Below, piece after piece: positions 1 to 23,058 of a stretch of DNA of 64,000 nucleotides. A model generated the notes under the pieces. The model was not told the origin of the DNA. It did no database searches and was given only the letters and a program-made list of their open reading frames with translations. Source of the DNA: an uncultured Pelagibacteraceae bacterium (GTDB lineage Bacteria > Pseudomonadota > Alphaproteobacteria > Pelagibacterales > Pelagibacteraceae); assembly GCA_902623415.1 (NCBI GenBank), contig CACNTU010000001.1:1-64000 (forward strand). The letters are read 5' to 3'. Every line of letters starts with the position of its first letter. Position 1 is the stretch's first letter. A program made the position numbers and the translations under genes.

Positions 1-575
1 GAATGCTGGTTGAGAAATCAATTTATGAAAGAGCTGTTAAAGAAGCTGTAGATGAAGCAAACAAAATTAAAGTAGATCAAGCCTTAAAAAAAGGAGATCA
101 TATAGGACCAGTAATTTCTAAAATTCAATATGATAAAATTATAAATCTTATTGAAAGTGGAATTTCTGAAGGTGCAACTCTTGCAGCAGGTGGGCCTGAG
201 CTACCAAACGGTTTGAACAAAGGATACTTTATAAAACCAACTATCTTTACAGATGTAACTAATGAAATGAGAATTGCTAAAGAAGAAATTTTTGGACCTG
301 TGTTATCTATAATTCCATTTGAAACTGAGGATGAGGCAGTCAAAATTGTAAATGATACTTCTTATGGTCTTGGAAATTATTTGCAAACTGAAGACAAAGA
401 AAAAGCACACAGGGTTGCTAAAAAATTAAGATCTGGATGTGTTTACATTAATGGAAATGGAGCAGATGCCGGAACTCCATTTGGTGGTTACAGACAATCA
501 GGTAATGGTAGAGAAGGAGGTGTTTGGGGCCTTGAGGAATATCTTGAAGTAAAGAATGTTACTGGTTGGAGTTAA
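1..575 (+). CDS. Aldehyde dehydrogenase family protein, C-terminal part (5' end outside window)
   Basis: ORF product contains EEIFGPVLSIIPFETEDEAVKIVNDTSYGLGNYL and GTPFGGYRQSGNGREGG, typical of the ALDH C-terminus; too short to be complete. Confidence 0.92.
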   Translation, partial: MLVEKSIYERAVKEAVDEANKIKVDQALKKGDHIGPVISKIQYDKIINLIESGISEGATLAAGGPELPNGLNKGYFIKPTIFTDVTNEMRIAKEEIFGPVLSIIPFETEDEAVKIVNDTSYGLGNYLQTEDKEKAHRVAKKLRSGCVYINGNGADAGTPFGGYRQSGNGREGGVWGLEEYLEVKNVTGWS

Positions 576-1710
576 CCGAATTTTTTAAATATCTTAGTCT
601 TCCGATAATTTCATCTCGATCCATGTAATAACCTTGTAAATGTCTATGTCCTGAGTTTGGATCATATTCAGTTCTACCGTGTAATAATCGTCTATTGTTA
701 AAAGAAAAAATATCACCTGGTTCTAATCTAAATTTAATCTGGAATTGATCGTCATGAAGTAAATTTCCAAATCTGTGATGAGCCTTGTAAACTTTATCCA
801 TCAAATCAGGATGACAGTCTAAAGCATCCATGGTTGCTACACTAAACCTAATATCATGGTAATCATTATCTTTTGTTAGAGATATCGCGGGTGCGTAATA
901 ACTTCTTACAGATTCTTGTGTATAATCCATGTCTCTAAATTTTAAATGAACGTTTACTAGCGTATCAAATATTTCTTTCTCATTTTTTCTTAAATAATCT
1001 GCAACTGCAAAGCCATCTACAGCGGACGAGTCTCCTCCTGTTGCAGAATTAACTAAACAATGAAGAAATTGATAACCAGGTGGTGTTTCAAACCATGGTA
1101 AATCCATATGATTTCTTAGGGCATGTGCTGTGTAAGCAGAATTATTTGGTTTAGGAATATTAATTACTTCAAAAGGTGTTTTAAAAAAAGTTTCTCTAGT
1201 ATGGCTAATTCTGTTTAAAATTTTAAATCCAGAATTATTTTCGGTTGGAGCATTTTTTACTATAGCAATTCCAGTGTGGTGTAAAAGCTCTAACCATCTG
1301 ACAAGTCCATCATCTGAACTCATAATTTCATCATGTTCAATCTCAATTGACTTCAGATTATTTTGTAAAGAGTTATCCCAAAGTTTATAAGGAGATTTAT
1401 ATTCTAAATTATTTTTTATAGTATAGCAGTTTTCTCTTAACCAATTTTGGTCATAATAACTTATGTGTTCACCTTCACTCCATTCAATTTCAAGCTTGCC
1501 TTCATTATTTACTGCAAATTTTTTTGGATTAATATTATTTGATACTTTTAAAATATTAAACATTCTATGACGTGAGTCTTTGTCATGTGCAGTCGGACAA
1601 TTGTCTCTTAGCCATAAATAATTAAATTTACTTTTTTTTCCATCACTCCAGTCAACTTCTAAATTTGTAGAATTTTTAGTTATATTTTTAATTGTAAAAT
1701 TTTGTTCCAT
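559..1710 (-). CDS. Gamma-butyrobetaine dioxygenase-like Fe(II)/2OG oxygenase (DUF971-like N-terminus plus TauD domain)
   Basis: N-terminal WSDGKKSKFNYLWLRDNCPT, then HMDLPW and GDIFSFNNRRLLHGRTEYDPNSGHRHLQGYYMDRD motifs of the BBOX/TauD family. Confidence 0.85.
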   Translation of the reverse strand: MEQNFTIKNITKNSTNLEVDWSDGKKSKFNYLWLRDNCPTAHDKDSRHRMFNILKVSNNINPKKFAVNNEGKLEIEWSEGEHISYYDQNWLRENCYTIKNNLEYKSPYKLWDNSLQNNLKSIEIEHDEIMSSDDGLVRWLELLHHTGIAIVKNAPTENNSGFKILNRISHTRETFFKTPFEVINIPKPNNSAYTAHALRNHMDLPWFETPPGYQFLHCLVNSATGGDSSAVDGFAVADYLRKNEKEIFDTLVNVHLKFRDMDYTQESVRSYYAPAISLTKDNDYHDIRFSVATMDALDCHPDLMDKVYKAHHRFGNLLHDDQFQIKFRLEPGDIFSFNNRRLLHGRTEYDPNSGHRHLQGYYMDRDEIIGRLRYLKNSVNSNQ

Positions 1711-2441
1711 TAATTTTTATAATTTGAATGTTCTCTTTCTAGTTTTCTTAATAAAGCAGCCCACTCTGTTTTTCCATCATAATTATAATCATCAGAGTCA
1801 CTCATGTTTTCCCAGAAATATGCAGCTTTCTGTTTATCTATTTCATGTTTGTTTAAACCCATGGCAAGATTTTTTACCTGAACTGAACATGCTTGCTCTA
1901 GATAATAAGCTCTGAAAAATGCTTCTGCAGCAGTTTTTCCTACTGTGTAATATCCATGATTTCTTGTAATCAGAATGTCGTGTTTACTAATAAGATTTTC
2001 AAACTTGCTTCCAAATTCTTCGTCCTCAACAAATTCATAATCAATATATCCAACAAGATGATTTAAATAAACTGCGGCCTGTGAAAGATACATCAAACCT
2101 TCTTTAGTACCTCCAACTGCCATCACATCGTTGGCATGTCCGTGAACATAAAAGTTTACATCATTTCTTTTATTAAAAATCCATTGAGCAAGATTAATGC
2201 ATCCGTCATTTAACCAAGGTCCGTTTGAATCTAATTTTTTTCCGTTTTGATCAATTTTAACTAAAGATGAAGCAGTAATCTCTTCATAAAACATTCCATA
2301 TGGATGAACAAAAGAACAATTTTTATCTTCAGCAGATCTTGCACCTGCACATTGATTTGCAAGATCAGTCATACCGTACATATGTAAAATTCTATAGAGA
2401 GCAGACAACTCTAGTCGCACATCTTTATCTGTTTGCGCCAT
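1710..2441 (-). CDS. Class II aldolase/adducin family protein
   Basis: ITRNHGYYTVGKTAAEAFFRAYYLEQACSVQ is the family signature region; overlaps the downstream oxygenase start. Confidence 0.88.
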   Translation of the reverse strand: MAQTDKDVRLELSALYRILHMYGMTDLANQCAGARSAEDKNCSFVHPYGMFYEEITASSLVKIDQNGKKLDSNGPWLNDGCINLAQWIFNKRNDVNFYVHGHANDVMAVGGTKEGLMYLSQAAVYLNHLVGYIDYEFVEDEEFGSKFENLISKHDILITRNHGYYTVGKTAAEAFFRAYYLEQACSVQVKNLAMGLNKHEIDKQKAAYFWENMSDSDDYNYDGKTEWAALLRKLEREHSNYKN

Positions 2442-2481
2442 ATATAAAATTCTTATTTAAAAAATAAGTAAAAGCAAATAA

Positions 2482-2522
2482 ATACAACTGTTATTTATTA
2501 AAACAATCATAAGTTGTATAAT
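2482..2522 (+). promoter_or_regulatory. Candidate promoter/operator: inverted repeat ATACAACT...AGTTGTAT (2482-2489 / 2512-2519) overlapping a TATAAT -10 box (2517-2522)
   Basis: Direct reading; lies in the divergent intergenic region between the aldolase and proV-like genes. Confidence 0.45.
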
Positions 2523-2566
2523 ATTTGTTTTACATATGATGACTGTAACTGTTAGAACATTACATC

Positions 2567-3592
2567 ATGTCAAAAATTGAGATCAACAACGTTTACAAAA
2601 TTTTTGGTAACAACCCTTCCTCTGTACTGCCAATGGTAAAAGATGGTGCAACAAAAGATGAAATTTTAGAGCAAACAGGTCATACCGTTGGATTAGATAA
2701 TGTTTCGCTTAAAATTGAAGAAGGAGAAACCTTTGTTTGTATGGGTTTATCAGGATCAGGGAAATCAACACTAATAAGACATTTAAATAGACTAATCGAT
2801 CCAACTGATGGTGAAATTTTAGTTGAGGGCACGAATGTTATGTCGCTTGATAAAGATAAGCTTATTGAATTCAGAAGACATAAAATGAGCATGGTATTCC
2901 AAAGATTTGGTTTATTCCCACACAAAACAGTGATTCAAAATGTTGGTTACGGGCTTGAGATGCAAGGAAAAGGTGAAGATGAAAGAAATAAAATCTCAAT
3001 GGAAAAAATCGATGCAGTTGGTCTAACTGGTTTTGAAAATCAATACCCTGCTCAATTATCAGGAGGAATGCAGCAACGTGTTGGTCTAGCAAGAGCGTTA
3101 GCTACTGATACAGATATTATGTTAATGGATGAAGCTTTCAGCGCTTTAGATCCTCTGATTAGAAGTGATATGCAGAAACAATTAATTGATCTTCAAGCAG
3201 AACTAAAAAAAACAATTGTATTTATTACTCACGATCTAGATGAATCATTAAGATTAGGTGATCATATCGGGATACTAAACTCTGGAAAATTAGTTCAAGT
3301 AGGAACTCCCGAGGAAATTATTATGAACCCCGCTGATGATTATGTAAAAGCTTTTGTAAAAGATGTGAACAGAGCAAAAGTTATCAAGGCAAAAATTATT
3401 ATGAAAACTGCTGATCAGGCTAATGACATAGATAAATCAAACTTAATAAAAGTAAATGAAGATGAATTTATAGAGGATTTTTTACCAAAAATCGTATGCT
3501 CTGATTCAAATTGTGAAGTGGTTGATAAAAGTGGAAATGTAAAGGGATACATTTCAAATCAAGAATTACAGTCTTCATTAACAAGATCATAA
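2567..3592 (+). CDS. proV: Glycine betaine/proline (QAT family) ABC transporter ATP-binding protein, ProV/OpuAA-like
   Basis: Walker A GLSGSGKST, signature LSGGMQQRVGLARALA, Walker B IMLMDEAFSALDPL; QAT-type N-terminus. Confidence 0.88.
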   Translation: MSKIEINNVYKIFGNNPSSVLPMVKDGATKDEILEQTGHTVGLDNVSLKIEEGETFVCMGLSGSGKSTLIRHLNRLIDPTDGEILVEGTNVMSLDKDKLIEFRRHKMSMVFQRFGLFPHKTVIQNVGYGLEMQGKGEDERNKISMEKIDAVGLTGFENQYPAQLSGGMQQRVGLARALATDTDIMLMDEAFSALDPLIRSDMQKQLIDLQAELKKTIVFITHDLDESLRLGDHIGILNSGKLVQVGTPEEIIMNPADDYVKAFVKDVNRAKVIKAKIIMKTADQANDIDKSNLIKVNEDEFIEDFLPKIVCSDSNCEVVDKSGNVKGYISNQELQSSLTRS

Positions 3593-3593
3593 A

Positions 3594-4055
3594 GTGTTAT
3601 TAAAAACTTTCGAAGTAAAAAAGGAATGGGTTGATTACAATAATCACATGAACATGGCTTATTATGTTCTTGTTTTTGATCAAGCATGGGAAGTTGCACT
3701 TGAAAAGTTTAAAATGGGAGGAACTGCAGCAAAAAATCTTGATAGAAGTACTATGGTTGTTGAAACAAATACTAAATACTTAAATGAAGTTAAAGAAGGT
3801 GAAAAAGTAAATGTTAATCTAACCTATTTCGACCATGACAAAAAAAGACTTCATTTAAAAATGGAAATGATTTCTCAAAAAACCAATAAACTTTCAGCCT
3901 CTATGGAATGGATATCGCTGTATATAGATTTAAGTAAAAGAAAAGTCACAGAATTTGAGGAGGAAAAAGTAAAATTAATGAGAGACTTTATTGAACAAAA
4001 TAATTCAAAATTTTCAACTGAAGGTCTTCTATTCACTTCTAAATTGAAGAGATAA
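3594..4055 (+). CDS. Hotdog-fold thioesterase, betainyl-CoA thioesterase-like (GTG start)
   Basis: VKKEWVDYNNHMNMAYYVLVFDQAWE is a 4HBT-type active-site region similar to carnitine-pathway thioesterases; follows proV by 1 nt. Confidence 0.75.
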   Translation: MLLKTFEVKKEWVDYNNHMNMAYYVLVFDQAWEVALEKFKMGGTAAKNLDRSTMVVETNTKYLNEVKEGEKVNVNLTYFDHDKKRLHLKMEMISQKTNKLSASMEWISLYIDLSKRKVTEFEEEKVKLMRDFIEQNNSKFSTEGLLFTSKLKR

Positions 4056-4095: not shown

Positions 4096-5049
4096 ATGAG
4101 CACTGATAATAACTCAAAAGGAATTCTTTTAATAATTGCAGCAATGACTTTGTTTGCAATGCAAGACTCTTTAATTAAATTTATTTTTGAAAAAGCAGCA
4201 CTTTATGAGATTTTTTTTGGAAGGTATTTTGTTGCTGCAATTTTACTGTTTTGTTACATCAAATTTAGAGGTCAAAAAGTTTCTTTAAAAACCTATTATC
4301 CTTTTTTAACGTTTGTTAGAGTAATTCTTCATTTTTTAGCCTTTTCTGCATTCTTTATTTCTTTAACCTATATGCCTTTAGCTACAGCAAATGCTTTATT
4401 TTTCTCATGTCCATTTTTCGTATCGATTTTTGCAAAATTTTTTTTGAAAGAATTTATTGGTATCAGAAGATGGTCTGCAATTGTTTTTGGTTTTATTGGT
4501 GTATTTATTGTTTTAAATCCAAACTTTGATGATTTTGAATATAAAAGTCTACTACCGGTTTTGTGCGCATTTTTTTACGCAGCTTCAATGACAATAACAA
4601 AATATACATCTGATAAAGATGACGTTAATACTCAACTTTTTTATTTTTACCTAATAGCACTAATACTTTGTGGTATTATTTTTGTCTTTATGGGCAATGG
4701 TCAACTTAATGATCCTAATTTTGACCCCACTACTCAATTTATATTTAGAGAATGGTTTTCAAACTTTGATTATACTTGGAAGTTTATTTTATTTTTTGGT
4801 TTTGCTGCATCCATTGCTTTTGTATGTATTTTTTCTGCGTATATAGTTGCTTCACCTTCAGTTGTTTCATTGTTCGAATATTCTTTAATTATTATGTCTA
4901 TGATTCCAGGTTATTTTCTATTTAATGAAATACCTTCGGCTAGAACCTTCATTGGAGTTGCGTGCATAATAGCAGCCGGAATTTATATTTATATGAGAGA
5001 GCGAGTTAAAGATCAGTATATTGCAACTGAAACTCCAGTAAGAAGATGA
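4096..5049 (+). CDS. EamA/DMT family transporter
   Basis: Repeated hydrophobic helices and EamA-like pattern. Confidence 0.82.
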   Translation: MSTDNNSKGILLIIAAMTLFAMQDSLIKFIFEKAALYEIFFGRYFVAAILLFCYIKFRGQKVSLKTYYPFLTFVRVILHFLAFSAFFISLTYMPLATANALFFSCPFFVSIFAKFFLKEFIGIRRWSAIVFGFIGVFIVLNPNFDDFEYKSLLPVLCAFFYAASMTITKYTSDKDDVNTQLFYFYLIALILCGIIFVFMGNGQLNDPNFDPTTQFIFREWFSNFDYTWKFILFFGFAASIAFVCIFSAYIVASPSVVSLFEYSLIIMSMIPGYFLFNEIPSARTFIGVACIIAAGIYIYMRERVKDQYIATETPVRR

Positions 5050-6014
5050 ATAAAAACTATATACCGACAATCAATATATCTTCACTGATTAAAAATAATT
5101 TTGAAACTCAAAATGCATTTAAAACAATTAAAGAAATTGAAAAAGCTTGTATCAATATAGGTTTTTTTCAAATTACTGGTCATGGGATTAATCTAAAAGA
5201 AATTAAAAAAACTTGTGAAGTTGGAAATAAATTTTTTAATTTACCAGACAGCAAGAAAAGAAAATTATCACCTAAAAAATGGAATAACAAAAATAAAAAT
5301 TTATACAGAGGATATTTTCCTAATGATGTAAATGGAAAAGAAGGTTTGGATATAGGTGATTTAAAAGTAACTAAAAAATATTCTTCAAACATAAATAATC
5401 AGTACATAGAGCATCTTAATCTGAGTTTATGTTTTAATAAAAACTCGATTAATATTTTAAACAAATATTTTGATAATATTTATAGATTGAGTGAAACTTT
5501 ATTTAAAAGTGTAATAAAACTTAATAAAAAAAATCCTGATATTTCTAGTGCAGCTTTTTCAAGATTAAAAACATTAAGCACATTAAGATTTAATTATTAT
5601 CCAAATCAAACAAAACCAGTAGAAATATCAAAACAAGACGGGGTTGCGCTTGGATGTGAAACTCATGTTGATAGTGGAATATTTACAGTTCTCTATCAAG
5701 ATAGAAAAGGTGGATTACAAGTACAAAATAGAAAAAACAAAAAATGGTATGATGTACCATTTAATAAAAAGGCTTTAGTGGTAAATACTGGAAGAGCTTT
5801 GGAGTTTCTAAGCAAAGGCAAATTTAAAGCAACTAATCATAGGGTTTTGTGGAATAAAAGTAAGAGGCTCTCTGTTCCTTTTTTCTTTGAACCTTCCTAT
5901 GATTTCAAAATGAACCAATCATTTTTAAATGGAAGTAAATTCAAAAATAATGGTCTAATTTATGAGAAATTTCTTAACAAATCCTTAAAGAAATTTATTG
6001 AATATCAACGTTAG
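5046..6014 (+). CDS. Isopenicillin N synthase-like Fe(II)/2OG oxygenase
   Basis: GFFQITGHGI, THVDSGIFTVLYQDRKGGLQVQ and ATNHRVL motifs. Confidence 0.88.
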   Translation: MNKNYIPTINISSLIKNNFETQNAFKTIKEIEKACINIGFFQITGHGINLKEIKKTCEVGNKFFNLPDSKKRKLSPKKWNNKNKNLYRGYFPNDVNGKEGLDIGDLKVTKKYSSNINNQYIEHLNLSLCFNKNSINILNKYFDNIYRLSETLFKSVIKLNKKNPDISSAAFSRLKTLSTLRFNYYPNQTKPVEISKQDGVALGCETHVDSGIFTVLYQDRKGGLQVQNRKNKKWYDVPFNKKALVVNTGRALEFLSKGKFKATNHRVLWNKSKRLSVPFFFEPSYDFKMNQSFLNGSKFKNNGLIYEKFLNKSLKKFIEYQR

Positions 6015-6052: not shown

Positions 6053-6115
6053 TCGTTAAATTCAAAAATTTACGAAAGTGGGATCGGTCGTCTTTAAATT
6101 AATTTTTAAAGGAGG
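6053..6115 (+). promoter_or_regulatory. Structured 5' leader: hairpin TCGTTAAATT/AATTTACGA and SD-adjacent hairpin CTTTAAA-TTAATT-TTTAAAG followed by GAGG
   Basis: Inverted repeats read directly at 6053-6062/6067-6075 and 6092-6098/6105-6111. Confidence 0.4.
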
Positions 6116-6119
6116 CTTT

Positions 6120-7286
6120 ATGAACTTTGGATATTTTTGTAACACTACTAATTGGGATAAAAAACCTTATACCCAACTTTTAGATGAAGCTAGAGAGATC
6201 ACTGAATATTGTGATCAAAATAATTGGAATTCTATTTGGTATACCGAACATCATTTTAACCATGAAGGAATGGAGTCGTGCACCAATCCACTAATGATGT
6301 GCGCTGATGCTGCTGCAAGAACTAAAAATATTCGTTTAGGACAAGCTTGTAACGTAATTACATTTCATAATCCTATAAGACTTGCAGAAGATATTGCTAC
6401 CCTTGACCAAATGTCTAAAGGAAGAGTTGAAGTTGGTATTGGAAGAGGAGTTTATGGTAGAGAGGCCATTAACATGAACAAAGAAGCTGACTTAAAAGAC
6501 CAAGCAAAAAATTTTAGACTATTTTCAGAAACATTAGACATAATGAAAAAAGCATGGTCTGAAGACTTCTTTTCTCATCAAGGAGAATTTTATACCTATC
6601 CATCTCCTAATTTTATTTGGCAACACGATATGAGTCCTCCAAAAGAAAATGTTGTTGATTTAAAAACAAATGAATTAAAACAAATATCTGTATTACCAAA
6701 ACCTTATCAGAAACCTTTTCCACCAATATCACAAGTAGTTGATGGAGAAAGATCAATTCAATGGGCAGCAGAAAATGGTCTTAATACAATTATGTGGATA
6801 CCAACTGTAAAAGCTTTGAAAAAAAGATTTGAAATTTATAAAGAGGCAAAATCTAAAGCTGAAAATAGAGATGTACCACTAGGGGAAGGTATAAGTTTGG
6901 TTAGAGATATGTTTGTTGCAGAAACTATGGAAGAAGCTGAAAAAATGGCTGGAGAACATATTGTAAATTATATGAGATGGGTTTGTCATTGGAGAGGGTT
7001 GGGAAATCATATGGATCCAGATGAAAAATTACCAGAGACAAAAAATAAACTAGATTTATTAAATTATGAATTTCTTCATAAAAGAAATCTATTGTTTGGA
7101 ACACCTGAGTTTGTAATTGAAAAAATAAAAGAACTTCAACAAGAATTAAATCTTCAAAATTTACAAGTCTGGTCTAACTTTCCAGGAATTAAACACGAAG
7201 ACTGCATGAGAAGCATCAAATTATTTACAGAGGAAGTAATTCCAAATATAAAACCGATAGATACGAACATTCAAAGAGCTAGCTAG
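6120..7286 (+). CDS. LLM class (luciferase-like) flavin-dependent monooxygenase
   Basis: NSIWYTEHHFNHEG, LGQACNVITFHNPIRLAEDIATLDQMSKGRVEVGIGRG; start set at the ATG after GGAGG (6111-6115) rather than 6078. Confidence 0.9.
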   Translation: MNFGYFCNTTNWDKKPYTQLLDEAREITEYCDQNNWNSIWYTEHHFNHEGMESCTNPLMMCADAAARTKNIRLGQACNVITFHNPIRLAEDIATLDQMSKGRVEVGIGRGVYGREAINMNKEADLKDQAKNFRLFSETLDIMKKAWSEDFFSHQGEFYTYPSPNFIWQHDMSPPKENVVDLKTNELKQISVLPKPYQKPFPPISQVVDGERSIQWAAENGLNTIMWIPTVKALKKRFEIYKEAKSKAENRDVPLGEGISLVRDMFVAETMEEAEKMAGEHIVNYMRWVCHWRGLGNHMDPDEKLPETKNKLDLLNYEFLHKRNLLFGTPEFVIEKIKELQQELNLQNLQVWSNFPGIKHEDCMRSIKLFTEEVIPNIKPIDTNIQRAS

Positions 7287-7289
7287 TAA

Positions 7290-7874
7290 ATGGACTTAAA
7301 ACTTAGAAAATTTGCAAAATTTGTAGATAAAACTTTTATAGAGGGTGGAAAAAAAGCTAAAGAACCTGTTTTGTTAGTTTCAGTTGCAGCTGTTATAGAA
7401 AATCCTTGGGCCGGAAAAGGTTTTGTAGAAGATTTAAAACCAGAAATATTAGATCTTGCACCTCAATTAGGAGATCTTTTGGTGCCAGAGTTAACAAAAG
7501 AAATTGGATCAGGTGAAAAAATTTTAGCTTATGGGAAAGCTGCGATGGTTGGATTGAACGGTGAAATAGAACATGCGTCTGCATTTATTCATACTTTAAG
7601 ATTTGGAAATAAATTTAGAGATGCCGTTGGTGGAACTTCTTATTTAAGTTTTACTAACACTAGAGGTCCTGCGGGAGCAAAAATTTCAATTCCAATGATG
7701 CATAAAACTGATGCTGGATTAAGACCTTTTTATCTAACGCATGAATTTACAATTCACGATGCCCCTAATGAAGATGAAATAGTTGTAGCTATTGGAGGTG
7801 CTCCAACTGGACGAGCTCATGCAAGAACAGGTGACAGATATCAAGACATGAAAGAGATGGGCATCGATAAATAA
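7290..7874 (+). CDS. Amino acid synthesis family protein (DUF1185)
   Basis: Recognised family sequence, e.g. ISIPMMHKTDAGLRPFYLTHEFTIHDAPNEDEIVVAIG and GGAPTGRAHARTGDRYQDM. Confidence 0.8.
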   Translation: MDLKLRKFAKFVDKTFIEGGKKAKEPVLLVSVAAVIENPWAGKGFVEDLKPEILDLAPQLGDLLVPELTKEIGSGEKILAYGKAAMVGLNGEIEHASAFIHTLRFGNKFRDAVGGTSYLSFTNTRGPAGAKISIPMMHKTDAGLRPFYLTHEFTIHDAPNEDEIVVAIGGAPTGRAHARTGDRYQDMKEMGIDK

Positions 7875-8663
7875 TTGATGTCTTACAATTTTGATAACAA
7901 TCAAAATCATTATTATTTTAATAATAAAAATTCGTTACCAATAATTTTTATTCATGGGGTTGGTTTAAATCAGCAAATGTGGAAACCACAAATTGAATTT
8001 TTTAAAGATAATTCATTTATAACTTACGATCTGTTAGGACATGGAAAAACACCCTTTAAAGAGCCAAATTTATCAATGGAAAATTTTACTGATCAATTAT
8101 CAAATTTAGTAAATAACCTTAAGATAGATAAATTTAATTTAATCGGCTTTTCTATCGGCTCTTTGATTGCAATTGAATTTGCCTCAAAATATGAAAATTA
8201 TTTAAATTCCTTAACTCTAATTTCCACTACTTACAAAAGGACAGCTGAAGAAAGACAAAATGTAATTGATAGAGTGAATTTGGCAAAAGAAAATATGCCA
8301 ATATCTCAAATGGCAATGAAGAGATGGTTTTCAGATAAATACCTTGAACAAAATCCTGAGTTATATGATGAGTTTATGAAAATTCTTAACAAGAAAGGAA
8401 TTGATCAAGAAAATTTTATTAAATCTTATGAGGTGTTTGCAAACTATCAGGACAATCTTGAAAATATAAAAAATATAAAAACAAATACTTTAATAATAAC
8501 AGGATCGGATGACCCAGGATCTACACCTGATATGTCTAAAAATTTAAATAAAGATATAGAAAATTCAACCTATGTTGAAATCAAAAATGGAAAACATCTA
8601 TGCACTATTGAATATGCAGACGAAGTAAATAATGCAATAATGAAACATATAAATAATGCCTGA
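7875..8663 (+). CDS. Alpha/beta fold hydrolase (start TTG 7875 or ATG 7878)
   Basis: IFIHGVGLNQQMW, GFSIGSLIA nucleophile elbow, C-terminal catalytic His context NGKHLCTIE. Confidence 0.88.
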   Translation: MMSYNFDNNQNHYYFNNKNSLPIIFIHGVGLNQQMWKPQIEFFKDNSFITYDLLGHGKTPFKEPNLSMENFTDQLSNLVNNLKIDKFNLIGFSIGSLIAIEFASKYENYLNSLTLISTTYKRTAEERQNVIDRVNLAKENMPISQMAMKRWFSDKYLEQNPELYDEFMKILNKKGIDQENFIKSYEVFANYQDNLENIKNIKTNTLIITGSDDPGSTPDMSKNLNKDIENSTYVEIKNGKHLCTIEYADEVNNAIMKHINNA

Positions 8664-10137
8664 ATTAAAAAAATATCAAATGTTTATAGATGGTCAGTGG
8701 GTAGACTCTGATACAAAAAAAACTTTTGAAACTTTAAATCCAGAAAATAATAAGCCTTGGGCTACAGTTCCTGAAGCTAGCGCAAATGATGTAGATAGAG
8801 CTGTAAAAGCTGCACAAAAAGCTTTTGAAGGTGAATGGCCAAAGATGATTGCAAGAGATAGAGCAAAATATTTAAGAGCAATCGGAAATAAACTTAGAGA
8901 AAATTCTAAATTATTAGGAAAGATTGAAACAATTGATACAGGAAAACTGTACAGAGAAACTTATCAACAAGCAAAATACATTGCAGAGTATTATGATTAC
9001 TATGCAGGTTTAGCTGACAAAGTTGAAGGAACAGTTCTTCCAATAGATAAACCAAATATTCAAGCGATCACAACAAGAATTCCAATAGGTGTTATTGCAG
9101 CTATCATTCCTTGGAATTCTCAAATGTTTTTAACTGCAACAAAAGTCGCTCCTGCTTTAGCTATGGGCAATACAGTAGTAATTAAATGTTCTGAACTAGC
9201 ACCAGCAACTATGTTTGAATTTGCAAAGTTAGTTGAAGAAACTGGAATACCAAAAGGTGTTGTAAATGTAGTTTCTGGGTTTGGAGATCCATGTGGTAAA
9301 GCTTTAACTACTCACAATTTAGTTGAGAAAGTAGCTTTTACAGGAGGTCCTGAAACTGCAAGGCATATAATTAGAAACTCTGCAGAAAATTTATCTGAAG
9401 TAAGTTTAGAATTAGGCGGAAAAAGTCCTGTAGCTGTTTTTGATGATGCCAAACAAGAAAATGCAATTAATGGAATAACTGCTGGAATATTTGGAGCAAG
9501 TGGTCAAAGTTGTATAGCAGGTTCAAGGTTATACTTACAAAAAGGAATTTATAACGAATTTTTAGATAAGTTAGCATCAAGAGCAGAAAAAATTAAAATA
9601 GGTGCTCCTATGGACTCTGATACTGAAATGGGTCCACTAAGTAACTTCAAACAATTAGAAGTAATAGAAAAAAATATTAAATTAACTGTTGAACAAGGTG
9701 GAAAAATTAAATGTGGTGGTAAAAGACATCCTTTTTCAAATGAAGGTTATTATTTTCCTCCAACAATTATTGAGTGTGAAAATCATAATTTACCGGCTGC
9801 TGAGAATGAACTTTTCGGTCCTGTATTATCAGTGATGAAATTTGACACTGAAAAAGAGGTAATAGAATTAATGAACGACAATCAATATGGTCTTTCTTCA
9901 GGTGTTTATACTAGTGATCTTGCAAGAGGCATGAGGGTATCTAATGCTATCCGAGCAGGAATAACATTTGTAAATACTTATAGATTAATTTCACCTTCAG
10001 CTCCATTTGGGGGTATCAAAGATAGTGGATATGGAAAAGAAGCAGGAATTGACTCAATTAAAGACTACACAAGAGTAAAAACAACTTGGTTCTACACATC
10101 AGACGAACCCTCGCTAGACCCCTTCTCAATAAGATAA
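8656..10137 (+). CDS. Aldehyde dehydrogenase
   Basis: Full-length ALDH with LELGGKSPVAVFDDA and GASGQSCIAGSR catalytic Cys region. Confidence 0.93.
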   Translation: MPELKKYQMFIDGQWVDSDTKKTFETLNPENNKPWATVPEASANDVDRAVKAAQKAFEGEWPKMIARDRAKYLRAIGNKLRENSKLLGKIETIDTGKLYRETYQQAKYIAEYYDYYAGLADKVEGTVLPIDKPNIQAITTRIPIGVIAAIIPWNSQMFLTATKVAPALAMGNTVVIKCSELAPATMFEFAKLVEETGIPKGVVNVVSGFGDPCGKALTTHNLVEKVAFTGGPETARHIIRNSAENLSEVSLELGGKSPVAVFDDAKQENAINGITAGIFGASGQSCIAGSRLYLQKGIYNEFLDKLASRAEKIKIGAPMDSDTEMGPLSNFKQLEVIEKNIKLTVEQGGKIKCGGKRHPFSNEGYYFPPTIIECENHNLPAAENELFGPVLSVMKFDTEKEVIELMNDNQYGLSSGVYTSDLARGMRVSNAIRAGITFVNTYRLISPSAPFGGIKDSGYGKEAGIDSIKDYTRVKTTWFYTSDEPSLDPFSIR

Positions 10138-10244
10138 TCTGTACCAATTTACCCATCTAAAATAGGATAATTTTGTCATTGAATATTGATTGTATTCATA
10201 CTTAAATTAGATTTTATAAATTGTTAACAATAAAGAGGAAGATA

Positions 10245-11435
10245 ATGAGAAAACTATTTATCGCTGTATTTATGTTTGTATCAAGTTTTGGTTCAAATGT
10301 AATGGCAGACGGACATTCGATTAAAATGGGGATCATCTTAGGATTCACTGGTCCTATTGAATCTCTAACTCCAGCTATGGCTGCATCTGCAGAGCTTGCA
10401 TTTAAAGAAGCTTCTGATTCAGGTTCACTATTAGGCGGAAAAAAAATTGAGCCAGTAAGAGCAGACTCAACTTGTGTTGACTCAGCAGCAGCAACAGCTG
10501 CAGCTGAAGGGTTAATTTCAGGTGGTGTAGCTGCAATTATGGGAGCAGACTGTTCAGGTGTAACTGGTGCTATTGCAACTAACGTTGCTGTACCAAATGG
10601 TGTAGTAATGATTTCACCTTCAGCTACTTCTCCAGGATTAACAACTCTAGATGACAAAGGGTATTTTTTTAGAACTGCTCCATCAGATGCTAGAGGTGGT
10701 CAAATTTTAGCTGATATAACTAAAGACAGAAAAGTAAAAAGTGTTGCAATCACTTATACAAACAATGACTATGGTAAAGGTTTAGCTGATGTTTACAAAG
10801 CAGCAGTTGAAGCTCATGGTATTAAAGTTACAACTGTAACTGCTCACGAAGATGGAAAAGCAGATTACTCATCTGAAGTAGCAACTCTTGCTTCTGCTGG
10901 TGGTGATGCTGTAGCAGTTATTGGTTATCTTGACCAAGGAGGAAAAGGAATTATTCAAGCTTCTTTAGACTCTGGTGCGTTTGATAGATTTATTTTATCA
11001 GATGGTATGATTGGTCAATCTTTAGTTGATGCATTCGGAAAAGATTTAAGTAAATCATTTGGATCATTACCAGGTTCTACTGGTAAAGGTGCGGGTATAT
11101 TTGCTGAAGTTGCAAAAGCTGGAGGTGTAGAAGCTTCTGGTCCTTACACAGGTGAATCTTACGATGCAGCTGCTTTAATAGTTCTTGCAATGCAAGCAGG
11201 TAACTCTGCTGACAGAGCATCAATTGCAAAAAATGTAATGGATGTTGCTAATGCTCCTGGAACTAAAATTTATCCAGGTGAACTTAAGAAAGGTTTAGAC
11301 TTACTAGCAAAAGGTAAAAAGATTAATTACGAAGGTGCTACTGGAGTAACTTTTACTGAAGTTGGTGAAGCTGAAGGTTCTTTCTTAGAACAAGAAATTA
11401 AAGGCGGAAAATTCAAAACTAAAAAACAAAGATAA
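10245..11435 (+). CDS. LivK-like ABC transporter substrate-binding protein
   Basis: Signal peptide MRKLFIAVFMFVSSFGSNVMA, periplasmic binding protein type I fold sequence; start set at the ATG after GAGGA. Confidence 0.88.
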   Translation: MRKLFIAVFMFVSSFGSNVMADGHSIKMGIILGFTGPIESLTPAMAASAELAFKEASDSGSLLGGKKIEPVRADSTCVDSAAATAAAEGLISGGVAAIMGADCSGVTGAIATNVAVPNGVVMISPSATSPGLTTLDDKGYFFRTAPSDARGGQILADITKDRKVKSVAITYTNNDYGKGLADVYKAAVEAHGIKVTTVTAHEDGKADYSSEVATLASAGGDAVAVIGYLDQGGKGIIQASLDSGAFDRFILSDGMIGQSLVDAFGKDLSKSFGSLPGSTGKGAGIFAEVAKAGGVEASGPYTGESYDAAALIVLAMQAGNSADRASIAKNVMDVANAPGTKIYPGELKKGLDLLAKGKKINYEGATGVTFTEVGEAEGSFLEQEIKGGKFKTKKQR

Positions 11436-12712: not shown

Positions 12713-14083
12713 TTACTTTATTTCTATTTTTTCTGGAAGTATACCTTTAGGTCGATACCTCATAATAAACAACAATCCTAATCCCATCAGTAAAAATCTG
12801 AAATAAGGAACACTTTCAATTAAATGAGCTTTAAGTGCATTTGTTTCAGGAATTCCCTCAGTGAAAAAGTTTATTAAGAATAATGATATTGGTGCAGCTT
12901 CAATCCATAAGAACCAAACAACAAATCCTCCTAAAATTGCCCCAAAATTATTTCCACTTCCTCCAACAATTACCATCACCCAAATCAAAAAAGTATATCT
13001 CATAGGTCTATAACTTCCTGGAGTAAATAAACCATCTTGTGTAACAAGCATTGCGCCTGCAATTCCAACAATTGCAGAGCCTAAAATAAAAATTAATAAA
13101 TGTTGCTTAACAACATTTTTACCCATTGCATTTGCAGCTTCCTCATTATCCCTAATAGCTCTCATCATTCTTCCCCAAGGAGAATAAAGAGCTTTTTGAG
13201 TTAAAATTAAAAGAATAATTACTACTACTAAGAACAATCCTGAATAACATAGTTTTACAAATACTGATGAACCTTCAATAACAAGTTGGTTTAAGGCAGC
13301 TTGTCTATCAGCTAAATTCTCAATTACACTTAATTTTCCTGCATTAAACTTTTCAACTAATTTAATAAACCAATCAGTTGTTTGAAGATCTACTTCATAA
13401 GGTGCAGGTCTTTTTAATCCAATAACATTTTTAACTCCTCTTGTGAGCCAATCTTCGTGTTTAATAATTGCAATAACAATTTCAGAAATAAGTAGAGTGG
13501 CAATTGCTAAATAATCTGCTCTAAGACCAAGCGCAACTTTTCCAACTATAAAAGCTAAACCCCCCGCAAAAAGAGCTCCAACTATCCAAGAAAATATAAT
13601 TGGTAATCCAAATCCTCCTAAGAAACCAGTTTTAGCTGGATCTACTGCTTCAATTGCTTCTATGCCTGGCTCTGCAGAAAATCTAATAAGCAAAATACCT
13701 GAAATTATTATTGCAGCTATGCTGTATGTTCTGATTTTTGATTTTTCAAATCTTTTTAAAATAAACCTTATAACTAATACCATTACTACTATGAGCCATA
13801 ATGACATTAGAATGTCGAAACCTCCTGCCCTCCATGCTTCTTGAACAGGATCGACAGATATCAATACTGCAGCTAAACCACCTAGAGCTGTATAACCCAT
13901 AATTCCAAAATTAATTAAGCCAGCATATCCCCATTGAATATTTGCACCCATTGTCATAACTGCAGAAATCAAACAAAGATTAAATATTGATAATGCTATG
14001 TTCCAAGACTGAAATATCCCAACCATCAGAATGAGCACCATCATGATACTATAGGCTGCAATTACATTTAGGTTTTTTCTCAT
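12713..14083 (-). CDS. Branched-chain amino acid-type ABC transporter permease (LivM-like)
   Basis: GRMMRAIRDNEEAANAMGKNV EAA-type loop; operon context. Confidence 0.9.
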   Translation of the reverse strand: MRKNLNVIAAYSIMMVLILMVGIFQSWNIALSIFNLCLISAVMTMGANIQWGYAGLINFGIMGYTALGGLAAVLISVDPVQEAWRAGGFDILMSLWLIVVMVLVIRFILKRFEKSKIRTYSIAAIIISGILLIRFSAEPGIEAIEAVDPAKTGFLGGFGLPIIFSWIVGALFAGGLAFIVGKVALGLRADYLAIATLLISEIVIAIIKHEDWLTRGVKNVIGLKRPAPYEVDLQTTDWFIKLVEKFNAGKLSVIENLADRQAALNQLVIEGSSVFVKLCYSGLFLVVVIILLILTQKALYSPWGRMMRAIRDNEEAANAMGKNVVKQHLLIFILGSAIVGIAGAMLVTQDGLFTPGSYRPMRYTFLIWVMVIVGGSGNNFGAILGGFVVWFLWIEAAPISLFLINFFTEGIPETNALKAHLIESVPYFRFLLMGLGLLFIMRYRPKGILPEKIEIK

Positions 14084-15090
14084 AATACTTTCCCCTTAAA
14101 TATTCCCGAAGGTCGATAAATTAAAACTATTACCAATATAGAGAAAGAGACTGCGAACTTATAATCTGTAGACAGTAACTGAACTAAACTATTTGGTTCC
14201 ATACTTTCTGGTAAAACATACATAAAAAATTTTTTATATGCATAAGTGAGGAGTATTTCAGAAAAAGCAATTACATATCCGCCTAAAAAAGCTCCAAATG
14301 GATTTCCAATTCCTCCAACAATTGCTGCAGCAAAAATAGGAAGCATATTATTAAAATAAGTAAAAGGTTTAAAACTTTTATCTAAACCATACAAAGCACC
14401 ACCAATAGTTGCTAAAATTCCAGCAATAACCCAGGTAACTAGAACTATTTTTTTTGGATCAATACCTGACAACAAAGCAAGATCTTCATTATCAGAATAA
14501 GCTTTCATACTTTTTCCAGTTTTGGTTCTATTTAAAAACCAAAATAATAAAGAGACTAAAACTATTGTCACAAAAATGGTTATTACTTGAGTTGATTTCA
14601 ATGCAAGACCTTCATTTAAACCCGTCATCTCCTTAAATTCACGAGCTTTAATAATAAATTTTTCTCCATCAAAAAATCTTCTATCGCCAGGTCCAATTAT
14701 AATTCTTACCACTGCTTGAGTTACAAACATTACACCAATACTTACCATTGCAAACTGAACTGGGGGACTTTTCTGATGTCTATAATATTTGAAGACAAAT
14801 TTATCTATTAAAAGCATGTAAAGAATCATGAAAATAATTCCAAATGGGATAGCCAACAGAGCAGTAGGTAGAACCCCTAAAGAAACACCTAAAGATTGAA
14901 AATACCATGTGAATAAGATCGTAGCCATGGTTCCAAAAGACATCATGTCACCAGTTGCAAAATTAGCAAATCTTAAAATTCCATAGATAAGTGTTACAAA
15001 TATTGCACCCAGTGCTAACTGAGAACCATAAGTTAATGCAGGAATGAAAATATAGTTTAATAAAAGGATTATTGCATTTACAAAATCCAT
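14080..15090 (-). CDS. Branched-chain amino acid-type ABC transporter permease (LivH-like)
   Basis: GKSMKAYSDNEDLALLSGID loop and ALGAIFVTLIYGILRFANFATGDMM N-terminus. Confidence 0.9.
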   Translation of the reverse strand: MDFVNAIILLLNYIFIPALTYGSQLALGAIFVTLIYGILRFANFATGDMMSFGTMATILFTWYFQSLGVSLGVLPTALLAIPFGIIFMILYMLLIDKFVFKYYRHQKSPPVQFAMVSIGVMFVTQAVVRIIIGPGDRRFFDGEKFIIKAREFKEMTGLNEGLALKSTQVITIFVTIVLVSLLFWFLNRTKTGKSMKAYSDNEDLALLSGIDPKKIVLVTWVIAGILATIGGALYGLDKSFKPFTYFNNMLPIFAAAIVGGIGNPFGAFLGGYVIAFSEILLTYAYKKFFMYVLPESMEPNSLVQLLSTDYKFAVSFSILVIVLIYRPSGIFKGKVL

Positions 15091-15091
15091 A

Positions 15092-15799
15092 TTACCCTCC
15101 TAAAAAAGAGCTTCTTACTCTTGGATCGTCTAATAATTCTTTTCCAGTTCCTGAATAACGATTTTCTCCAGTAACCAGAACGTAGCCTCTATCTGAAATG
15201 CTTAATGCTTGTTTTGCATTTTGTTCTACCATTAAAATAGCAACGTTTGTTCTTTTTACTTTTACAATATGATCAAATAATTCGTCCATCACAATTGGTG
15301 ATACACCGGCAGTTGGCTCATCTAACATTAAAACAGTAGGCTTAATCATTAAAGCTCTACCTAGAGCCACTTGTTGTCTTTGACCTCCAGAAAGTTCACC
15401 AACCATCTGATTTCTTTTCTCTCTTAAAATTGGGAACAATTCGTAAATTTCCTCGATTATATTTTTGATTTCATCCTCAACAAGAAATGCTCCCATTTCT
15501 AAATTTTCTTCAACAGTCATACCTGAAAAAACATTTTTAGTTTGAGGGACAAAAGAAATACCTTGTTTAACTCGATCTTGAGGAGATAATTTTGAAATAT
15601 CCTTACCATCAATCTTTACTGATCCAGATTTTAAATCCAGCAAGCCCAACATTGCTTTCATGGCAGTTGATTTACCAGCTCCATTAGGACCTAAAATAGA
15701 AACTATTTCACCTTTATTAACATTTACTGAACACGAACTAATAATGTCAGGACCATTACCATAACCACCTGTCATTTCTATTCCTTCAAAATATGCCAT
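15092..15799 (-). CDS. ABC transporter ATP-binding protein (LivF-like)
   Basis: LGPNGAGKST, LSGGQRQQVALGRALM, VLMLDEPTAGVSP. Confidence 0.92.
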   Translation of the reverse strand: MAYFEGIEMTGGYGNGPDIISSCSVNVNKGEIVSILGPNGAGKSTAMKAMLGLLDLKSGSVKIDGKDISKLSPQDRVKQGISFVPQTKNVFSGMTVEENLEMGAFLVEDEIKNIIEEIYELFPILREKRNQMVGELSGGQRQQVALGRALMIKPTVLMLDEPTAGVSPIVMDELFDHIVKVKRTNVAILMVEQNAKQALSISDRGYVLVTGENRYSGTGKELLDDPRVRSSFLGG

Positions 15800-16587
15800 T
15801 AATTTGTATCCTTTAATTTTGATCCTCTTCCAAGATAGCTTTCGATAACTTTCTCATCTTTTTTTGCTTCTTCAACACTTCCTTCAAATAATACTGACCC
15901 CTCAGCCATTACAATCACTGGATCACATAATCTTCCAATAAAATCCATATCATGTTCAATCATACAAAAAGTATAACCTTTTTCTTTATTTAACTTTTCT
16001 ATTGCAGTTCCAAGATCTTTTAACAAAGTTCTGTTAACTCCAGCCCCTACTTCATCTAATAATACTAATTTTGCATCAACCATCATGGTTCTTCCAAGTT
16101 CTAGTAATTTCTTTTGTCCACCTGAAAGGTTTCCGGCAAGCTCATTTGATAAATGTCCTAAATTTAAAAATTCAACAACTTCTTTCGCTTTCTCTTTAAC
16201 CACAGCCTCTTCTTGGGCAACTAAACCTGGTTTAAATAATGCTGTCATTATTTTTTCTCCAGATTGATTTCCTGGAACCATCATTAAATTTTCTAAAACA
16301 GATAAATTTGAAAACTCATGTGCAATTTGAAATGTTCTTAACAACCCTTTAGAAAATAATTCATAAGATGGAACATCAGTAATATTTTCATCATCAAAAA
16401 CAACATTACCACCAGAGGATTTTAAATTTCCAGCAATTAAATTGAATAAAGTGGTTTTACCAGATCCATTTGGTCCAATGATACCAGTGATAGTTCCTCT
16501 TTTAACTTTTATTGAACAATCTGAAACTGCAGCTAATCCACCAAAATATTTACTTAAATTATTAATCTCTAAAATATTTTCAGACAT
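15799..16587 (-). CDS. ABC transporter ATP-binding protein (LivG-like)
   Basis: IGPNGSGKTT, LSGGQKKLLELGRTMM, LLRTFQ. Confidence 0.92.
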   Translation of the reverse strand: MSENILEINNLSKYFGGLAAVSDCSIKVKRGTITGIIGPNGSGKTTLFNLIAGNLKSSGGNVVFDDENITDVPSYELFSKGLLRTFQIAHEFSNLSVLENLMMVPGNQSGEKIMTALFKPGLVAQEEAVVKEKAKEVVEFLNLGHLSNELAGNLSGGQKKLLELGRTMMVDAKLVLLDEVGAGVNRTLLKDLGTAIEKLNKEKGYTFCMIEHDMDFIGRLCDPVIVMAEGSVLFEGSVEEAKKDEKVIESYLGRGSKLKDTN

Positions 16588-17392: not shown

Positions 17393-18304
17393 TTAATTAA
17401 CAAAAAAAGAACCTCTAATTCTTAGTAATTCTCTGCTTAATTCCTTGTTTTCTTTGAAGGGTTTTCTTCCATGAAGCCAGAAATAATTATTTGCAATCAC
17501 AGAGAATCCAACAGGTAACTTTGTAATTATTTTATTTTTACTTTCCTCTAATCCATCAGATAATCTTTGTAAAAAATTTCCTTGGTCCATATTTTGTGGT
17601 TCTGGAAATTGATCTATGTAGGATATTGTTGGTCTTCCCTCTTTATCATGCGAAAAGACTGGGTGCTCTACCTTGTAATCAATATTTTTACTTTTTGGTG
17701 ACCCCCAAACAAAATTTTGTCTCCCTACTGGATCATTATATAAATCATCACAATGCTCCCAGTCATCAAGGTGTAGCATAGCTGTTTCTCCACCTTCAAC
17801 ATTTTGCTCATCAATTTTTGTCATGATTAACCAATCTGTTACATCTTTAACATATGTCCCATCTGTATGAAGATCCATATTTCTATAAGCTTTTCTTAAG
17901 TAAGAGTCGCTAGTATCTTCATGTTTTACATGAAAACGAGCATAGTATTTTCCTGCCATTGCATCATGATTTGGTACACCAATTAAATGAGCTATTGCAG
18001 TTGATAACTTAACTAAAAATGTATCATTAATTTTTGCAGTTATATTTTTTGGTCCAATAATAAAGCAACCTGTAGATCTATCTCTAATAATTGAGTTCAT
18101 TAATTTACTTAATTTATTATCTGTTAAATCATCTAAACTTTTTGCTAAAGTAAATCTTGTAAATGGTTTTAACTCCAACGCTGTTAAATCAAATTTATTA
18201 AATGGGAAAATTAATTTATCTATAATATCATTATCTAAACTAATTTTTATAATCCTATTTGATTTATCGTGTTTTTGAATGTCTATGCCTGTAATTTTTT
18301 GCAT
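17393..18304 (-). CDS. glaH: CsiD/GlaH family glutarate 2-hydroxylase-like Fe(II)/2OG oxygenase
   Basis: NMDLHTDGTYV, MTKIDEQNVEGGETAMLHLDDWEH, YIDQFPEPQ and NNYFWLHGRKPF match the CsiD pattern. Confidence 0.85.
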   Translation of the reverse strand: MQKITGIDIQKHDKSNRIIKISLDNDIIDKLIFPFNKFDLTALELKPFTRFTLAKSLDDLTDNKLSKLMNSIIRDRSTGCFIIGPKNITAKINDTFLVKLSTAIAHLIGVPNHDAMAGKYYARFHVKHEDTSDSYLRKAYRNMDLHTDGTYVKDVTDWLIMTKIDEQNVEGGETAMLHLDDWEHCDDLYNDPVGRQNFVWGSPKSKNIDYKVEHPVFSHDKEGRPTISYIDQFPEPQNMDQGNFLQRLSDGLEESKNKIITKLPVGFSVIANNYFWLHGRKPFKENKELSRELLRIRGSFFVN

Positions 18305-18667: not shown

Positions 18668-19361
18668 TGTGCTCTCCTACTAGATAAGCTATGGTTCCAC
18701 CAATTACACCTGCTAACAAAATTGACCACTCTGGTGAGAATAAATAAATAATTGGTCCCAATATAGTTCCAAGCAAAACTGATAGAGCTACCGGTATAGT
18801 CTTAGATGCCCCAACCATCATGCATAAAAAATAAACCGGATTAAGAATTGCTAATCCCATCATCATATCTTTATTCAAATACTCTGAAAAAGAGAAACCT
18901 ATAAATGTTCCAATAACCGATACACTTACAGTTGCACTTCCAATACCAATCCAATAATCAATTCTGTATTCTTTTGGAATTTTTTTATAATTACTTTTCA
19001 TGATTAGCCAAGCGGAAACAGCAATGAAATGACAAGAAAAGTAATACTTCCATTTAGGTTGACTTTTGTGCATCATCAACGGGAATAAGGATACAGCCAT
19101 AGGGTAAAGTCTTGCGTTAACAAACCAAACCGCCAAAAAAATATTTAACAGAGATGCTCCAATTAACATGGACTCAGCCATTACTAGTGAGCCCGGTAAA
19201 GCATAAGTTAAAACAGTTGAAAAAATACTTTCCTGAATATTAAAACCTAAATTTTTAAATAGAGCTCCAATAGCTATAAAACAACAAGTGAGAGCAATTG
19301 CAGGACTGTCGTGAGTAAATATAGATCTATATCCTTTGAAGAAAAAATTTTTATTAATCAT
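18657..19361 (-). CDS. azlC: AzlC family branched-chain amino acid export subunit
   Basis: AzlC-like sequence, ARLYPMAVSLFPLM region; paired with AzlD. Confidence 0.82.
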   Translation of the reverse strand: MINKNFFFKGYRSIFTHDSPAIALTCCFIAIGALFKNLGFNIQESIFSTVLTYALPGSLVMAESMLIGASLLNIFLAVWFVNARLYPMAVSLFPLMMHKSQPKWKYYFSCHFIAVSAWLIMKSNYKKIPKEYRIDYWIGIGSATVSVSVIGTFIGFSFSEYLNKDMMMGLAILNPVYFLCMMVGASKTIPVALSVLLGTILGPIIYLFSPEWSILLAGVIGGTIAYLVGEHSVS

Positions 19362-20146
19362 TATCCGCCTAGGAACAGTCTACCAACATCAGGATTTTGA
19401 AGTAAATCGTCTCCTTTACCTGCTATTGCAGTTTGCCCAGATACTAAAACGTATCCTATATCTGCAAACTCCAATCCTTTTTTGGCATTTTGCTCAACTA
19501 GAATGATTGTTTTTTTTTCATTTTGTTGAAGATCTCCTAAAATTTCAAAAACCATATCAATATATCTTGGTTCCAAACCAATTGAAGGTTCGTCAACAAG
19601 TAATACAGACGGTTTCATCACTAAAGCTCTTGATATTTCCAATAATCTTCTTTCTCCACCAGATAATACTTTTGCGGGTTGGCTTCTTCTGTTTCTAAGC
19701 CTTTCATATTTTTCTAATATTCTCTCTGCTTCTTCAAAAGATTCCTCTGTTTTATCTTTTATGTAGCCACCCATCAGTAAATTTTCCTCTACCGTCATAT
19801 CTGGAAAGACAGAATTGTCTTGTAAAATATATGCAATTCCAACTGACTTTAATTTTTCAGCTGGTGTTAGATTTGTAATTTCTTTACCATCTATTTCTAT
19901 TTGACCTGAAAAAATATTTGTAAACCCATATATCGAATGGAGTATTGTAGATTTACCTGCTCCATTCGGTCCAATCAAACATAATGATTGAGCCTTATTT
20001 ACAAACAAGTCAAAATTATGCAGAATTTCCATTTTTCCATATCCAGCATTTAAATTTTTAATTGTTAAATGTATTTCATCTGGAGATAGTTTTTTTAAAT
20101 CTTCCGGTGTTGGCGCTTTACCTAAAACTTCATATTGATTTGACAT
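19361..20146 (-). CDS. ABC transporter ATP-binding protein (LivF-like, second set)
   Basis: GPNGAGKST, LSGGERRLLEISRALV, LLVDEPSIGLEP. Confidence 0.92.
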   Translation of the reverse strand: MSNQYEVLGKAPTPEDLKKLSPDEIHLTIKNLNAGYGKMEILHNFDLFVNKAQSLCLIGPNGAGKSTILHSIYGFTNIFSGQIEIDGKEITNLTPAEKLKSVGIAYILQDNSVFPDMTVEENLLMGGYIKDKTEESFEEAERILEKYERLRNRRSQPAKVLSGGERRLLEISRALVMKPSVLLVDEPSIGLEPRYIDMVFEILGDLQQNEKKTIILVEQNAKKGLEFADIGYVLVSGQTAIAGKGDDLLQNPDVGRLFLGG

Positions 20147-21935: not shown

Positions 21936-22104
21936 ATAAACTCTTGATTTTATCTCTAAAATTCTGATCTACTGTAAAATAATGGCCATCTTCATCATGA
22001 ACACTTAATCCTGTGGAGTGATATTCATCTAAATGTTTTTTAAATTGATCTATGTCAACTTCAATAGATTTCCCTTGATTATCATTAATTTTAACTTTTC
22101 TCAT
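21922..22104 (-). CDS. 60-aa acidic soluble hypothetical protein between livH- and livM-like genes
   Basis: Overlaps both neighbours (ATGA-type junctions); no hydrophobic segment. Confidence 0.75.
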   Translation of the reverse strand: MRKVKINDNQGKSIEVDIDQFKKHLDEYHSTGLSVHDEDGHYFTVDQNFRDKIKSLYEQE

Positions 22105-22994: not shown

Positions 22995-23016
22995 AAAAAG
23001 TATTTTTGGGTTATAT

Positions 23017-23044
23017 AAAAAAAAGCCCCCTATGACTAGGGGGC
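23017..23044 (-). terminator. Intrinsic terminator/attenuator (8-bp GCCCCCTA/TAGGGGGC, 4-nt loop, U-tract on minus strand) between the binding protein and permease genes
   Basis: Direct reading; stem 23025-23044, A-run 23017-23024 on + strand. Confidence 0.9.
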
Positions 23045-23058
23045 TTTAGTATTTTATT

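Follow-up and report, generated by a model that had tools for sequence, protein, structure and literature searches.

What do the four closely packed genes at positions 6120–10137 of the window encode as a system? The window is a 64,000-nucleotide stretch of contig 1 of a Pelagibacteraceae genome (assembly GCA_902623415.1, here G000; 893,819 bases, 71% complete). The genes specify a luciferase-like monooxygenase (LLM), a DUF1185 protein, an α/β hydrolase and an aldehyde dehydrogenase, and a preliminary description of this DNA had likened them to the trigonelline (Tgn) pathway of Acinetobacter. The explanation that we favor, and to which we give an even chance, is that they constitute an accessory catabolic operon that would open a dissolved N-heterocycle in a Tgn-like manner but with a different monooxygenase. 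Near-identical loci were found in other Pelagibacteraceae (LLM identity 99%), and the source lineage of the operon is SAR11.

Most of the gene products resemble Tgn cluster proteins

On a plasmid of Acinetobacter sp. PK01, the annotated tgnA, tgnB and tgnC genes are preceded by genes for a DUF1185 protein (annotated as “amino acid synthesis family protein”) and an α/β hydrolase, and a succinic semialdehyde dehydrogenase (SSADH) gene is located further on. A similar gene set occurs on plasmids of Klebsiella, Rhizobium and Leisingera, and the combination of DUF1185, hydrolase, TgnC-type dehydrogenase and LLM was observed in these three genera, in Acinetobacter and in other alphaproteobacteria. 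The DUF1185 protein of the window is 57% identical over 193 amino acids to that of the PK01 cluster, and the dehydrogenase is 50% identical to TgnC as against 34% to the Tgn-linked SSADH of the same strain. Both fall among the proteins of Tgn-type clusters, which bears out the proposed resemblance. The dehydrogenase was placed inside the TgnC-type group (98/98), away from SSADH, in a tree with some long-branch outgroups. The DUF1185 tree is divided into two clades (100/100), one dominated by proteins from Tgn, second rhizobial-type and other hydrolase-linked clusters, and the other remote; the window protein belongs to the clade that contains Tgn, outside the Tgn subclade itself, where it adjoins the homolog of genome G299 with weak support (82/73).

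One DUF1185 clade can now be tied to ring-opening operons. The first structures of the family had hinted at no more than a loose connection with amino-acid metabolism (PMC2954203), and PMC7913881 notes that the homolog TgnF stimulates the TgnE-dependent oxidation of succinic semialdehyde. In locus L213 (L213:870-7043), a DUF1185 gene is accompanied by genes for an α/β hydrolase, an amidohydrolase and two multi-domain RidA-type (PF01042) proteins, with no LLM; this content hints that proteins of this DUF1185 clade act on enamines or imines formed as intermediates. Adjacent tandem pairs of DUF1185 genes are present in many larger alphaproteobacteria (G436:C7:43431-44536, G361:C27, G416:C11 and others), and these probably belong to the remote clade.

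The hydrolase is 27% identical to TgnD of PK01 over 265 amino acids, and both proteins score with PcaD-family models; the best NCBIfam model for the window protein is of the PcaD type, below its cut-off. An alignment of 13 cluster hydrolases showed the nucleophile Ser93, the near-invariant acid Asp213 and His241, as well as three arginines (122, 133 and 150) that are invariant in all 13. These arginines may hold carboxylates, although PcaD has similar residues.

The monooxygenase forms a clade separate from TgnB

By sequence kinship, a TgnC-type dehydrogenase and a TgnF-type DUF1185 protein recur at this locus, and a TgnB-clade oxygenase does not. When the LLM was compared with the annotated TgnB of PK01, as the preliminary description had suggested, the identity was 33% with only 149 amino acids aligned. 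In the LLM tree, the proteins of SAR11, of a second family of the order and of G299 form one clade (100/97), and the TgnB-type and second rhizobial-type proteins form another (100/100); in this tree, which has some long outgroup branches, the two clades are not sisters. The separate, supported clade and the short alignment rule out that the LLM is a TgnB, and since it lies outside the TgnB clade, trigonelline itself is not indicated as the substrate. Judged from sequence, the oxygenase has an origin different from that of the Tgn system, and most of the toolkit is Tgn-like.

The luciferase-type EHH motif is kept in the aligned LLM. Clustering with an unrelated, characterized LLM subfamily, an outcome that had been named as unfavorable to a pyridinium pathway, was not observed: none of the curated NCBIfam subfamilies scored above its cut-off (the best reached 103.5 bits against 462). 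No NCBIfam subfamily was assigned to the DUF1185 protein either, and the AlphaFold models were too poor for use (mean pLDDT of 38 for the LLM and 50 for DUF1185).

The operon is conserved in order and patchy in distribution

Among 80 named SAR11 loci, 62 continue for 3.9 kb or more past the LLM gene and were counted for gene order. The order LLM-DUF1185-hydrolase-dehydrogenase is kept in all 62, and therefore the arrangement is not due to chance. Across 101 relatives, the LLM was detected in 37 and DUF1185 in 38; 34 genomes have both, 3 and 4 have one of them singly, and 60 have neither. Within the genus of the window, 23 of 61 genomes carry the LLM. Absence is not merely a matter of incomplete assembly, because the LLM is present in only 6 of the 22 genomes with a completeness of 90% or more. 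This patchiness among near-complete genomes indicates that the four-gene operon is accessory; roughly one in three of the SAR11 examined carries it. Apart from the window's own protein, no strong LLM relative was found in a phylum-wide sample of 398 genomes.

In several SAR11 carriers, a gene for a thiamine diphosphate (ThDP) enzyme of 562–567 amino acids is inserted between the LLM and DUF1185 genes, which is a new observation. Examples are L044, L045, L047, L048, L050-L053, L055 and L057 (gene positions L044:8936-10636, L045:5634-7334 and L053:7300-8997). The enzyme is of the sulfoacetaldehyde acetyltransferase (Xsc)/acetolactate synthase superfamily, and its nearest models are Xsc (399.5 bits against a cut-off of 620) and acetolactate synthase, which scores about equally; both are below cut-off. 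The insertion occurs in none of the 80 loci nearest to the window, and no ortholog was found in the window lineage or in the complete genome G012, where the best matches are 28–32% identical. Genome G216 (L201) has a cluster of ThDP enzyme, DUF1185 and reductase genes that seems to represent a parallel pairing; the matches to the SAR11 gene at E≤1e-30 do not include the ThDP gene of this cluster.

Gene layout and surroundings

The five open reading frames described initially, including that of the binding protein, were recovered with the families attributed to them (open reading frame list and Pfam; Table 1), and the first four proved to be as tightly spaced and co-directional as had been stated: the gaps between the LLM, DUF1185 and hydrolase genes are at most 3 bases, and the hydrolase and dehydrogenase genes overlap by 8. 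An AGGAGG-like ribosome-binding site precedes the ATG at 6120, and the hydrolase frame has an ATG at 7878. The DUF1185 protein scores 218 bits with its Pfam model, for a gathering cut-off of 27.

Table 1. Features of the operon and its flanks (window positions)
Feature	Position	Strand	Evidence
LLM-class flavin monooxygenase, proposed ring-opening enzyme	6120..7286	+	PF00296 E=1e-46, EHH motif, own clade
DUF1185 / AA_synth protein, TgnF-like clade, putative accessory role	7290..7874	+	PF06684 E=6e-65, tree
α/β hydrolase, PcaD/TgnD type, proposed to hydrolyse the ring-opened intermediate	7875..8663	+	PF00561 E=5e-22
Aldehyde dehydrogenase, TgnC type	8656..10137	+	PF00171 E=5e-161, tree
LIV-type binding protein, core SAR11 gene	10245..11435	+	PF13458 E=3e-32
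2-oxoglutarate/Fe(II) oxygenase, upstream of operon, membership uncertain	5046..6014	+	PF03171/PF14226
EamA/DMT-type permease, possible transporter	4096..5049	+	family by inspection of the open reading frame sequence
livM-livH-livF-livG, core LIV transport block bordering the variable slot	12713..16587	-	conserved block

The 2-oxoglutarate/Fe(II) oxygenase gene, which overlaps that of the EamA permease, is found upstream of the operon in 40 of 40 window-like loci versus 8 of 33 more distant SAR11 loci, and may be a lineage-specific addition to the neighborhood. The permease gene precedes the operon in 37 of 39 window-like loci and is rarer elsewhere. Just upstream, the genes at 559–4055 have a quaternary-amine theme: they encode a γ-butyrobetaine-dioxygenase-like protein, a class II aldolase and a lone ProV-like ATPase, the last adjoining a carnitine-dehydrogenase-type thioesterase gene (3594–4055).

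The leucine-isoleucine-valine (LIV)-type binding protein had been included in the proposed pathway, a placement that our results do not sustain. A gap of 107 bases separates its gene from the dehydrogenase gene, and it is present in 22 of the 22 genomes at least 90% complete, whether or not they have the operon. Considering all the relatives, 25 have both the binding protein and the LLM, 12 the LLM only, 54 the binding protein only and 10 neither (odds ratio = 0.39, p=0.08), with no positive association. The block of binding protein, livMHFG and proC also appears in genomes that lack the operon, where different genes fill the slot upstream (L263-L268), and the operon adjoins the LIV block in 52 of the 62 loci. 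The simplest reading is that the operon occupies a variable slot beside a core transport locus. As a core SAR11 gene whose presence does not depend on the operon, the binding protein is not evidence for the pathway; the LIV transporter could import the operon's substrate. A second LIV-type ATP-binding cassette (ABC) transporter operon, at 19361–24297, lies with the livMHFG operon within 12 kb and has its own binding protein (23059–24297). A gene for a GlaH/CsiD glutarate dioxygenase (17393–18304; 455 bits, cut-off 333) is placed at the end of the liv-proC block, and this block recurs in several SAR11 genomes.

Proposed mechanism and flavin supply

From the protein families and by analogy with the Tgn pathway, the following sequence of steps can be proposed. 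The LLM, fed reduced flavin mononucleotide (FMNH2) by a reductase encoded elsewhere, would insert oxygen and cleave the ring, giving an N-formyl-enamine aldehyde or the corresponding hydroxylactone. The TgnC-type dehydrogenase would oxidize the aldehyde to the acid, and the TgnD/PcaD-type hydrolase would release formate and the amine part, while the TgnF-like DUF1185 protein might accelerate tautomerization or hydration of the enamine or oxo-acid product.

Genes of the PF03358 (FMN_red) family are present in SAR11 carriers and non-carriers alike, and their products are natural candidates that may supply FMNH2 to the LLM. In G299, a larger alphaproteobacterium whose LLM belongs to the same clade as that of the window (55% identity) and is encoded alongside DUF1185, hydrolase and dehydrogenase genes, a flavin reductase gene (PF01613) is located directly upstream of the LLM gene, followed by that of a Rieske protein resembling carnitine/glycine-betaine monooxygenases. 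These neighbors fit a two-component enzyme and a quaternary-nitrogen theme.

Weighing the explanations

Several observations weigh against a Tgn-like ring-opening operon. The lack of a flavin reductase in the window, already noted in the preliminary description, extends further: no TgnA-type reductase (PF01613) was found in G000 (71% complete), in the complete G012, or in G004 and G022, in a search that was positive for 13 of 14 control genomes. No SSADH or further aldehyde dehydrogenase gene is present in or just after the operon, the rest of the genome not having been searched. The LLM, besides its position outside the TgnB clade, has an extra stretch near residues 165–190, and no DUF1185 gene lies close to the relatives that other genomes encode at 32–44% identity, so that a tie to this chemistry does not extend over the entire LLM clade. 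SoxB-like genes do not discriminate on this point: they are found in SAR11 carriers and non-carriers alike, and Mgd (N-methylglutamate dehydrogenase, reportedly involved in the homarine pathway) was not distinguished among them from sarcosine oxidase.

The sequences do not discriminate between candidate substrates; our guess is that a carboxylated N-methylpyridinium such as homarine, a compound abundant in the sea, is the most plausible. Homarine is favored because of the marine setting, the published homarine pathway and the consequences of a 2-carboxylated ring: a carboxylate next to the ring nitrogen would leave an α-oxo or α-imino acid, which could explain the ThDP enzyme of some carriers. 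We hold as tentative, below an even chance, the idea of a separate SAR11 ring-opening pathway in which a new-clade LLM works with a reductase encoded elsewhere, and to which several lineages have added the ThDP enzyme for an α-oxo acid that does not arise in trigonelline degradation.

A more specific version of the favored explanation, that the operon serves in homarine catabolism as the SAR11 counterpart of the pathway published in 2026 and yields N-methylglutamate or methylamine plus a C5 acid, is possible but doubtful. Cleavage of homarine between C5 and C6, oxidation and deformylation would give N-methyl-dehydroglutamate, a single reduction from N-methylglutamate, and the window LLM is the sole LLM gene found in G000. 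Nevertheless, no reductase was identified for that final step, the SoxB-like genes are common to carriers and non-carriers, and the larger-genome cluster L220, which has five genes of this kind besides a PucR-type regulator, uses an LLM of another clade. The 2026 homarine paper reportedly names SAR11 among the carriers; if so, the operon may already be known, and its novelty would be lower.

The opening of another N-heterocycle or N-methylated cyclic amine (of the picolinate, N-methylproline/stachydrine or pyrimidine type) seems unlikely. The Rieske protein of G299 keeps other quaternary or cyclic amines as candidate substrates, a pipecolate-oxidase-like protein also flanks that cluster, and the hydrolase weakly resembles RutD; however, the flanking genes come from this one genome.

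A type II Baeyer-Villiger route, in which the LLM would oxidize a cyclic ketone, the enol-lactonase-like hydrolase would open the lactone and the dehydrogenase would finish, is rather improbable. Among the top solved structures, the only full-length match to the LLM is 3,6-diketocamphane monooxygenase (4uwm; E=1.9e-17, residues 38–377), and the best model for the hydrolase is the enol-lactonase PcaD. Yet the PcaD similarity is common to TgnD, and this route leaves unexplained the DUF1185 protein, whose close relatives are in Tgn-type clusters. Sulfonate breakdown, with desulfonation by the LLM and handling of the aldehyde by the Xsc-like ThDP enzyme, can practically be set aside, since the SAR11 ThDP protein, although it scores best with the Xsc model, stays far under the cut-off and about level with acetolactate synthase, its gene is absent from the window lineage, and the DUF1185 protein and TgnC-type dehydrogenase are left unexplained.

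Under the explanation that we favor, an N-heterocycle-opening operon, SAR11 carriers probably use a dissolved compound with a nitrogen-containing ring as food. SAR11 cells rank among the most abundant in surface seawater and encode few catabolic functions; the presence of the operon in about a third of the sampled species therefore indicates a dissolved nitrogen compound for which it pays to compete. The four genes of the system are defined, carriers and non-carriers both occur naturally, the reductase partner poses a clear question, and homarine and its relatives are thus open to direct tests.

Comparison with known systems

The Acinetobacter Tgn cluster (tgnA-B-C, the hydrolase gene tgnD, the DUF1185 gene tgnF and the SSADH gene tgnE) has in common with the window all four families in one operon. 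It differs in gene order and in the clade of its LLM; in addition, neither the SAR11 operon nor the searched genomes have a TgnA-type reductase, and no cytosine-permease-type transporter gene lies beside the SAR11 operon. A second LLM/DUF1185 cluster, from rhizobia, Agrobacterium and another alphaproteobacterium (L036, L159, L220), contains the same four families, in L220 in the order reductase-LLM-DUF1185-hydrolase-dehydrogenase together with its own ABC transporter. Its LLM is sister to TgnB and about 26% identical to that of the window. The Baeyer-Villiger enzyme 3,6-diketocamphane monooxygenase belongs to the camphor pathway and is not known to have a DUF1185 partner. The published pathway of homarine catabolism (Nat Microbiol 2026;11:1531), which reportedly involves Mgd, shares with the SAR11 operon the proposed N-methylpyridinium substrate class and the marine setting.

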